DNA from: Halococcus qingdaonensis
Lineage (GTDB): Archaea; Halobacteriota; Halobacteria; Halobacteriales; Halococcaceae
DNA: 64,000 bases
Direction: 5' to 3'
NCBI RefSeq assembly: GCF_024508235.1
Contig: NZ_CP101943.1
Coordinates: forward strand, 1,585,112-1,649,111
The notes beneath the pieces were generated by a model that was not told the DNA's origin, ran no database searches, and saw only the letters and a list, made by a program, of their open reading frames with translations. Shown piece by piece: positions 61,166 to 64,000 of the stretch. The position numbers and the translations under genes are program-made. Every line of letters starts with the position of its first letter. Positions within the stretch are counted from its first letter, which is position 1.

Positions 61166-61258
61166 CGTCCATTGTATCGCATGTCAGTCGGGTTCAACCC
61201 CACGAGGGTTCGTCTGAAACCGAGTGAGTTGCCGCCGACCGTGATTTGGAGCTTGTCG

Positions 61259-61266
61259 CTTCAACC
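61259..61266. repeat. Target-site duplication, left copy
   Basis: CTTCAACC, identical to 62210-62217 on the other side of the IS. It belongs to the CRISPR repeat (positions 2-9). Removing the element and one copy restores a perfect repeat. Confidence 0.92.
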
Positions 61267-62209
61267 GGCCGTGTTTAATCGCATGACGGAAGTGGAATTT
61301 CCTGTTTTGCGGCCTGCTTGATGTTGTACACCGCACACATCAACGCGATCTCACGAAATTCTCGATACCATGTCCGCGCTCGCAGGGCGACGCCCAGCGA
61401 GCGCTTGACCGAGGAGAAGACGGTTTCTGACATGGAGCGCTGGTGGTAGAGATCGTCGTCAATTCGGGCGTTGTGGGCGTGATCGTAGGGCTTGTTGATG
61501 CAGTGCTTGATCAACGGTCGGAGGTCAAGATCCTCACGGAGGTACTCACGCAGCCACGTGCAGTCGTAGCCTTTGTCAGCAGTGAGGATCTGCAACTCGT
61601 CCGCCTGCCGGCGGGCGAGTTGCATGCAGATGTCGGCGTCACTTCCTTCTCTGGTGGTCGTACAGTGCAAATCGAGGATGACGTTTGTTTCTGCATCGAC
61701 AAGTTTCGTGGCTTTGAGGCCCTGTACCTCGTATTTCGTCTTGTTGCAGTACGAGCGGCTCGCAGGCGAGCGCTCGAAGAACGTAGCGTCGATCGCTCCG
61801 ATCGGCCCAGTGTTATGAAACTGCGCAGACTGCTGGAGAAGTGTTCGACAGACCGCCATCTCAATTCTATCGAAAGCGAGACATAACGTCGATGGATGCG
61901 GGAGATCGGCCGGCTCAAGGCCGATCTCCCGCGATATTCGTGGCATTTCCGTCAACACATCGATCGTCATCCGGTAGGTTGTATCGAGATAAATCCGGAG
62001 ACAGTGGATGGATATCATCGCTGCATCGGTGAACCCGCCGCCACCTTCCGGGGCGGCGGGTTCGTCCCAATCATCGGCAACCCTTTTGACGGCGAAGACA
62101 ACACGTTCGGTGAAGCGGAAGATTTGCGTTGACATACTTCGCCGTCTTCCGCTTCAACTCCGTCACTCTGGCGACCTGATCCGACGTTGTCTAGCGATTA
62201 AACACGGCC
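61267..62209 (-). mobile_element. IS5-family (ISH1-like) insertion sequence, complete
   Basis: 943 bp bounded by perfect 16-bp terminal inverted repeats: GGCCGTGTTTAATCGC at 61267-61282 and its complement at 62194-62209. It is flanked by 8-bp direct repeats CTTCAACC. One intact transposase gene fills it. Perfect ends, intact gene and perfect duplication indicate a recent insertion, into a CRISPR repeat. Confidence 0.95.
61275..62135 (-). CDS. IS5-family DDE transposase
   Basis: 286 aa, apparently intact. Catalytic triad: Asp116 in GAIDATFF, Asp187 in TADKGYD and Glu237 in SMSETVFSSVKRSLG, the last with the Y/R-type IS4/IS5 context. DNA-binding N-terminus about 1-100. The TAA stop lies within the left terminal inverted repeat. 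Transcribed in the same direction as the CRISPR array. An 8-bp target duplication agrees with the ISH1 group. Confidence 0.93.
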   Translation of the reverse strand: MSTQIFRFTERVVFAVKRVADDWDEPAAPEGGGGFTDAAMISIHCLRIYLDTTYRMTIDVLTEMPRISREIGLEPADLPHPSTLCLAFDRIEMAVCRTLLQQSAQFHNTGPIGAIDATFFERSPASRSYCNKTKYEVQGLKATKLVDAETNVILDLHCTTTREGSDADICMQLARRQADELQILTADKGYDCTWLREYLREDLDLRPLIKHCINKPYDHAHNARIDDDLYHQRSMSETVFSSVKRSLGVALRARTWYREFREIALMCAVYNIKQAAKQEIPLPSCD

Positions 62210-62217
62210 CTTCAACC
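62210..62217. repeat. Target-site duplication, right copy
   Basis: CTTCAACC directly after the right inverted repeat, continuing into CCACAAGGG of the interrupted CRISPR repeat. Confidence 0.92.
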
Positions 62218-63229
62218 CCACAAGGGTTCGTCTGAAACCTCGCGATACCACGGCACGCCCGTCGTGGAGGAGCCGCTTCAACCCCACAAGGGTTCGTCTG
62301 AAACCTCGGTCTTGATAAACTTGAAACTCCGTTCAAAGAGGCTTCAACCCCACAAGGAGTCGTCTGAAACACGGGCCACCTCAAGGCTTCGTACACCACG
62401 GAGCCGCGCTTCAACCCCACAAGGGTTCGTCTGAAACTCGCCGGCGACGTCGGTCTCGCCGGCCGCGAACGTGCTTCAACCCCACAAGGGTTCGTCTGAA
62501 ACCGTGGTCGCCGGTGAGCGGCGCGACAGTCAGACCGTTCGCTTCAACCCCACAAGGGTTCGTCTGAAACTTTGCCCTTCCGGTTGACAACGATCTGCCC
62601 CTGGTCGCTTCAACCCCACAAGGGTTCGTCTGAAACGCGACCGTCGAGAGCATCGACCCGGTGGAGTTTGCCTGCTTCAACCCCACAAGGGTTCGTCTGA
62701 AACGATACGCATCGTATGGCCGCGAACCGCTCACATCGCTTCAACCCCACAAGGGTTCGTCTGAAACGACACAGCTCATCCGCGAGGCCAGCGGCGAGCA
62801 GATGGCTTCAACCCCACAAGGGTTCGTCTGAAACCGGCCACGAGGAGCGCAAGCACACGCTCATCGACACGCTTCAACCCCACAAGGGTTCGTCTGAAAC
62901 CAGGCCATGATCGGCACGCGCAAACATCTCGACGATCTGCTTCAACCCCACAAGGGTTCGTCTGAAACCGGTGCCGTCCGACACGAACGTCGCGCGACGG
63001 TCGCTTCAACCCCACAAGGGTTCGTCTGAAACTCAGGACGATGTGAAGTTTGACAGCGGGCTGCGGGGGCTTCAACCCCACAAGGGTTCGTCTGAAACAC
63101 CGACGACCACACTTCGGCGGGCTGGCTGACGCCGCTTCAACCCCACAAGGGTTCGTCTGAAACGCGAAAATCGCATCCCAGCGTCGTCGTGGAGTTTTTG
63201 CTTCAACCCCACAAGGGTTCGTCTGAAAC

Positions 63230-63330
63230 ATGTGCCGAAATACGGGACACAGAGCCGCTATTGACCGCTGTTGACTTAGTGTTTCCGTCGACTATCGATT
63301 TCGGTAAACGATCGGGGGGTCGATGGATAA
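63230..63330 (-). promoter_or_regulatory. CRISPR leader
   Basis: About 100 bp between the last repeat and the cas2 stop, on the side where the array's minus-strand transcription would begin. It is less GC-rich than the flanks and lacks repeats or genes. New spacers should be added next to position 63229. Part of the leader may overlap the cas2 3' end. Confidence 0.7.
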
Positions 63331-63591
63331 TCAGGTAAATCGGCTGCCCGGCTCGTCGCTATCACCCAGAACCGTACACTCGACGGCGGCTGAGACATCA
63401 GCTTCAAAGATGTACACGGAGTCCTCGGGAATGAGAACGGCATCGATCTCCTGTTTGATCCCGACGAGTTGTCCTTCGGTGATGTCACCGTGAAACACTG
63501 ACTGCTGGAGATGTTCGAGTCGTTTTCGGAGGAGCTTTCGATAGACGTGCGTCCGTTCTGCTGGCACGTCGTAGGTCACGAGGACGAACAC
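63331..63591 (-). CDS. cas2: CRISPR-associated endonuclease Cas2
   Basis: 86 aa from a GTG start. Partner of Cas1 in the spacer-integration complex. Typical opening FVLVTYDVPAERTHVYRKLL with the conserved Asp8, then LQQSVFHGDIT and a short beta-rich C-terminus (EDSVYIFEADV). Starts 1 bp after the cas1 stop and ends about 100 bp from the array. Confidence 0.95.
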   Translation of the reverse strand: MFVLVTYDVPAERTHVYRKLLRKRLEHLQQSVFHGDITEGQLVGIKQEIDAVLIPEDSVYIFEADVSAAVECTVLGDSDEPGSRFT

Positions 63592-63592
63592 G

Positions 63593-64000
63593 CTACCACC
63601 ACCGCTCGGTCGGACGATACGGCTCGCCCGTCAGGATGTGCTTTTTCAGGCTGTACACGTCGGTCTGGACGAGCGTCTTGTAGCTGACCTTCCGCTTGAG
63701 TCGAGGGTGCTCGACCGTGCGATCAAGCGTGTCCTCGTATTCCCCAAGCACGGTCAATCGTCCGTCCTCGGTGAGGAGACAGCCGTCGAGATCGGTCTCG
63801 AAGTCGTCCAGCCCCAGTTGCTGGCGGTTCACCAGCCGGAACAACACCCGATCGGCGAGGATAGGCTTGTAGATATCCGCGATATCGAGCGAGAGGGTGA
63901 ACCGGCGCTCGCCGGGTTCGTGCATGAACCCGACGGTGGGATCGAGTGCGGTCTTCCTGATCGCGGAAACCGAGGTGGTATAGACCATCGAGTTGAGAAA
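63593..64000 (-). CDS. cas1: CRISPR-associated integrase Cas1, partial
   Basis: C-terminal part of Cas1 (about 135 codons); the N-terminus lies beyond the window end. Metal-binding residues are visible: His in GFMHEPGERR and Asp in SLDIADIYKP, the usual late catalytic residues of the Cas1 fold. Sequence LNSMVYTTSVSAIRKTALDP precedes them. Operon with cas2. The rest of a type I-B cas operon would be expected to the right, but that is inference. Confidence 0.93.
   Translation of the reverse strand, partial: FLNSMVYTTSVSAIRKTALDPTVGFMHEPGERRFTLSLDIADIYKPILADRVLFRLVNRQQLGLDDFETDLDGCLLTEDGRLTVLGEYEDTLDRTVEHPRLKRKVSYKTLVQTDVYSLKKHILTGEPYRPTERWW

Follow-up and report, generated by a model that had tools for sequence, protein, structure and literature searches.

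The locus examined here raises two questions, namely why a complete insertion sequence (IS) lies inside a repeat of a haloarchaeal CRISPR array, and what this means for the CRISPR-Cas system to which the array belongs. We analysed a window of 64 kb (the whole stretch of DNA, 64,000 nucleotides), together with the adjoining chromosome and other haloarchaeal genomes. The explanation that we consider very probable is that an ISH28-like IS chose a good target octamer in the leader-distal repeat, as one of three related insertions in a locus whose type I-B effector is probably inactive.

The insertion sequence and the repeat that it splits

The CRISPR array (61191-63229, minus strand, as are all array features given below) comprises 17 repeats of 30 nt (GTTTCAGACGAACCCTTGTGGGGTTGAAGC) and 16 spacers. 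A preliminary description of this DNA had placed the leader on the right, and the gene arrangement agrees with this: cas2 (63331-63591, profile match) and cas1 (type I-B, 63593-64000, continuing past the window edge; 331 aa and intact in the genome) lie to the right of the array on the minus strand, a degenerate terminal repeat (61191-61220) lies at its left end, and the array is read on the minus strand. The stretch that separates cas2 from the first repeat (63230-63330) was taken as the leader region by position only. One internal repeat (62341-62370) carries a two-base change, CACAAGGAGTCGTC instead of CACAAGGGTTCGTC; all other internal repeats lack this change.

The repeat starting at 61258 is interrupted by an IS of 943 bp (61267-62209, minus strand), which was assigned to the ISH28-like group of the IS5 family from its sequence and nucleotide matches. 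Its ends, GGCCGTGTTTAATCGC and GCGATTAAACACGGCC, form perfect 16-bp terminal inverted repeats (61267-61282 on the plus strand and 62194-62209 on the minus strand; 16/16 bp). The single long ORF of the element (61275-62135, minus strand) encodes a transposase of 286 aa that matched the IS5-family profile NF033579 with 204.7 bits (cut-off 140) and PF01609 with 65.5 bits (cut-off 23), and its orientation matches array transcription. The octamer CTTCAACC is duplicated on the two sides of the IS (61259-61266 and 62210-62217). The element thus combines the DDE transposase, terminal inverted repeats and 8-bp target duplication of the IS5 family; a duplication of 8 bp, the length of the haloarchaeal subgroup, was present at all three of its own copies and at 16 further related copies. 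When the flanks were joined without the IS and one duplication, the sequence obtained was GCTTCAACCCCACAAGGGTTCGTCTGAAAC, identical to the consensus of the remaining repeats. The preliminary description had read the insertion in the same way, and all of its positions were recovered here, as was its observation that only the oldest, leader-distal spacer (61221-61257, 37 nt) is separated from the rest of the array. Owing to the target-site duplication, the split repeat is almost complete on the leader side (62210-62238, 29/30 nt), while the spacer-side copy is only a 9-nt stub (61258-61266), in which the 8-nt crRNA handle GTTGAAGC is kept and the remainder is gone.

Two other sites on the 2.70-Mb chromosome carry the same 943 bp at 100% identity, and there too the element is flanked by an 8-bp duplication specific to the site. 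The octamers duplicated at the three identical copies are alike (CTTCCAGC, CTTCAACC and CCTCCAAC; chance of such likeness 0.001). The array IS is real and, since its three identical copies are flanked by different duplications, appears to be mobile. Its nearest copies were found in Halococcus morrhuae and H. dombrowskii (98% identical); for the 98% identical copy on an H. dombrowskii plasmid (NZ_CP095006.1; L194 1501-2443), the gene table lists no annotated gene. The element resembles the ISH28-type IS5 elements of Halobacterium and other haloarchaea in its IS5-family transposase and in a nucleotide match to an annotated ISH28-family element, although the latter is only about 67% identical to it over the matched part.

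Target preference and recurrence at one repeat base

We built a target matrix from 28 target octamers located outside CRISPR arrays, pooled from several related elements of the IS group, with base composition taken from the 64-kb window. These sites showed a weak palindromic preference, GTTNNAAC-like, of 3.4 bits, and all of the 2000 shuffled controls were lower (maximum 2.1). The site used in the array, GGTTGAAG at repeat positions 22-29, ranked first among the 23 octamers of the repeat and scored among the best 0.6% of octamers in the window, and only 0.9% of the shuffled controls ranked it first. It remained first when the matrix was made either from the sites of a second genome (G202, described below) alone or from the non-G202 sites alone. 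The preliminary description had suggested that the repeats supply many copies of the target, and indeed GGTTGAAG occurs 16 times in the pre-insertion array versus 3 times elsewhere in the window.

The pattern of a repeat joined to an IS end was run against 392 haloarchaeal genomes, following a suggestion in the preliminary description, and the junction was found in two species only, this Halococcus and G202, which belongs to another family. G202 contains two insertions, one in each of two arrays, in opposite orientations and at the identical repeat base, as shown by two leader-side junctions, which bear opposite IS ends, and their two spacer-side counterparts; its assembly breaks at the IS, and the pairing of contigs across each IS was deduced from the end types. 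A copy of the G202 IS is 69% identical to the array IS over 901 bp. The same base has been struck independently in two families. In the assembled contigs the G202 arrays reach about 110 and 43 repeats, and in one of them some 90 spacers are located past the IS. The two arrays have one identical spacer, TCGCGGTGGTCCGCGAGTACGTCCGCGCTCAAGTC, in common (L160, L161). The cas genes located between the arrays have their full length, and decay of the locus is therefore no precondition for insertion into a repeat. With its two independent array insertions and intact cas genes, G202 also offers a test of array transcription across an IS. A second class-wide genome sample, centred on G202 and consisting of essentially the same genomes, yielded no further case, and a search for repeats with an altered last base returned variant repeats and no other IS junction.

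As judged from these comparisons, the landing site is not accidental and appears to be set by the ordinary target preference of the IS group, which would likewise account for the recurrence at one repeat base. The ISH28-like IS5-family element of Halococcus would have transposed into the leader-distal repeat of the type I-B array because the last nine bases of that repeat hold a good copy, GGTTGAAG, of its weakly palindromic, GTTNNAAC-like target octamer. The conserved repeat end is present many times over in an array, which turns the array into a recurring target for an element whose weak preference matches it.

The neighbouring cas operon and alternative explanations

The operon extends past the right edge of the window in the order cas6, cas8b, cas7, cas5, cas3, cas4, cas1 and cas2, and NCBIfam matches were obtained for all eight type I-B genes (cas8b, cas7 (Csh2), cas5b, cas6, cas3, cas4, cas1b and cas2). 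Two of the effector genes are split. In cas7, an IS5-type element of 932 bp follows codon 248 of 340 (chromosome 1654350-1655281; L015 10351-11282), and in cas8b one of 940 bp follows codon 47 of 715 (chromosome 1658063-1659002; L015 14064-15003). Both lie beyond the window and are flanked by their own 8-bp duplications, GTAGTTCT and GTTCCATA, respectively, and their transposases are 38% (cas7) and 69% (cas8b) identical to that of the array IS. Joining the flanks restored frames of 340 aa (Cas7) and 715 aa (Cas8b), which over nearly their full length are 83% and 76% identical to the intact Cas7 (340 aa) and Cas8b (717 aa) of Halorubrum lacusprofundi pHLAC01. A whole-chromosome search found a single cas7, the one in two pieces. 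The locus is thus classed as a broken type I-B locus and not as a working one.

The operon (L015 4705-15976) is close to that of the H. lacusprofundi plasmid pHLAC01 and has the same gene order, while the other Halococcus genomes carry a distant Cas8b at most. This pattern suggests that the operon was acquired by horizontal transfer. An empty site for the array insertion was not found among the other Halococcus genomes, in which no operon of this version is present (Cas8b identity 30% or less).

Since cas8b and the only chromosomal cas7 are both split, the type I-B effector is probably dead, and we infer a loss of interference from these gene structures; an intact system on a plasmid, beyond the one chromosome examined, could supply Cas7 and Cas8b in trans. 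The insertion into the array may then have been tolerated as further decay, with relaxed selection as the likely reason why the insertions persist. The preliminary description had also spoken of an attack on the immune locus; this holds as a record of damage, while nothing shows either targeting or adaptation.

Mis-joins are common at repeats and IS elements, and the insertions might accordingly be suspected to be artefacts of assembly. That is barely credible here, as every copy has an exact and distinct 8-bp duplication and the joined flanks restore a consensus repeat and reading frames. Chance insertion without any sequence preference has in its favour that the array covers about 2 kb, that IS elements insert widely and that the consensus is weak; but three independent insertions in two families struck the same repeat base, the best-scoring of 23 octamers, and we regard chance as very unlikely. 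Selection for inactivation would be a further reason for the insertions, with IS hits favoured by relief from autoimmunity or by the entry of a beneficial plasmid or virus, as in IS-trapping in E. coli. The chromosome has ten IS5-type transposases of this size, three of them inside the 13 kb of this locus (chance of any 13-kb stretch with three of the ten, 0.008), and cases in which IS elements inactivated cas genes under selection are on record (PMC10359306). However, neither the window nor the examined loci showed a self-targeting spacer, one insertion would have been enough, and the array insertion alone disables almost nothing, while relaxed selection following a first hit accounts for the remaining insertions. 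We therefore think it unlikely that the locus was inactivated under selection, and retain target preference followed by relaxed selection as the preferred explanation.

The preliminary description had dwelt on the crRNA of the oldest spacer; on this reading, the functional point would be the loss of one guide from an otherwise working system. In the I-B system of Haloferax, the 8-nt 5' handle of the crRNA comes from the Cas6 cut in the repeat (PMC3945376, PMC4326828). Here the repeat upstream of spacer 61221-61257 is cut to 9 nt, the junction gives no fold, and an orphan crRNA would need transcription through the 943-bp IS. The failure of Cas6 processing that it expected would follow from the loss of the upstream repeat needed by Cas6, but the last 8 nt, which form the 5' handle, survive beside the orphan spacer, and crRNAs made without Cas6 can function given a 5' handle made in another way (PMC4326828). 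Against this emphasis, IS elements also interrupt cas7 and cas8b in this operon, so that no effector is expected and the loss of one crRNA becomes minor; we hold it improbable that this loss is the functional point of the insertion. Normal crRNA levels in Haloferax depend on Cas5, Cas6 and Cas7 together (PMC3945376), and with Cas7 broken the present strain would be expected to have little crRNA altogether.

Guides from the split repeat and comparison with known insertions

At the split repeat, the neighbouring leader-side crRNA should still form its 3' end, with 29 of the 30 repeat nucleotides kept. Beside the orphan spacer the handle bases are still present, but no upstream repeat is left for Cas6, a normal 5' end is not expected, and we infer that its crRNA is lost. 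The leader-side repeat copy would give a hybrid guide, with GUUGAAGG as the handle and the IS end as the spacer. This guide is expected to be inert because handle position -1 is taken by the first base of the IS, a G, and G at this position abolished interference in Haloferax. With cas7 and cas8b broken, such effects of the array insertion on crRNAs are probably of no consequence in this strain. An attack of the hybrid guide on the IS itself was considered and dropped, given the G at -1 and the bases adjacent to the IS ends (AAG, AGG, ACC, TAC etc.), which are not Haloferax PAMs. A broader idea, to which we give little credence, is that common haloarchaeal repeats are a recurrent preferred landing site of this IS group, with a target octamer that nearly coincides with the handle, a leader-side repeat that Cas6 could still cut to yield the hybrid guide, and a -1 G that spares the IS; if true, the IS would escape targeting by a guide that its own insertion creates.

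When the orphan spacer and the array were compared with phage records, the only hits were weak ones, to unrelated bacterial phages, and viral contigs contained no exact match to the orphan spacer. The spacers had only short chance matches to IS elements and to the examined host loci (the orphan spacer being taken here as 61222-61257, one base short, without effect on the result).

Natural transposition of IS elements into CRISPR-cas loci is well documented, with 163 cases in cas genes from 57 genera described in PMC10359306. The present locus likewise has effector genes, cas7 and cas8b, that are broken by complete IS elements flanked by target duplications; the survey, in its accessible text, counted cas-gene insertions, whereas one of the three insertions reported here is in an array repeat, at a base that was hit again in another family. 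In Haloquadratum walsbyi HBSQ001 a mobile element is likewise found within a haloarchaeal CRISPR array, but it is a MITE, HqIRS37, inside a spacer of a residual array without cas genes (PMC3119063), in contrast to the complete IS in a repeat described here. In Sulfolobus solfataricus, as reported in PMC3839810, an IS entered an array at the matching spacer under plasmid challenge; there the spacer itself was struck under selection, whereas here it was a repeat, without evidence of selection. No report of recurrent insertion at one repeat base was found in the literature searched, the coverage of which was partial. IS inactivation of CRISPR loci is already known, and what appears to be new here is the recurrence at one repeat base. 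The Halococcus locus is also a clean natural example of one IS group taking a CRISPR-Cas locus apart, array and genes at once.
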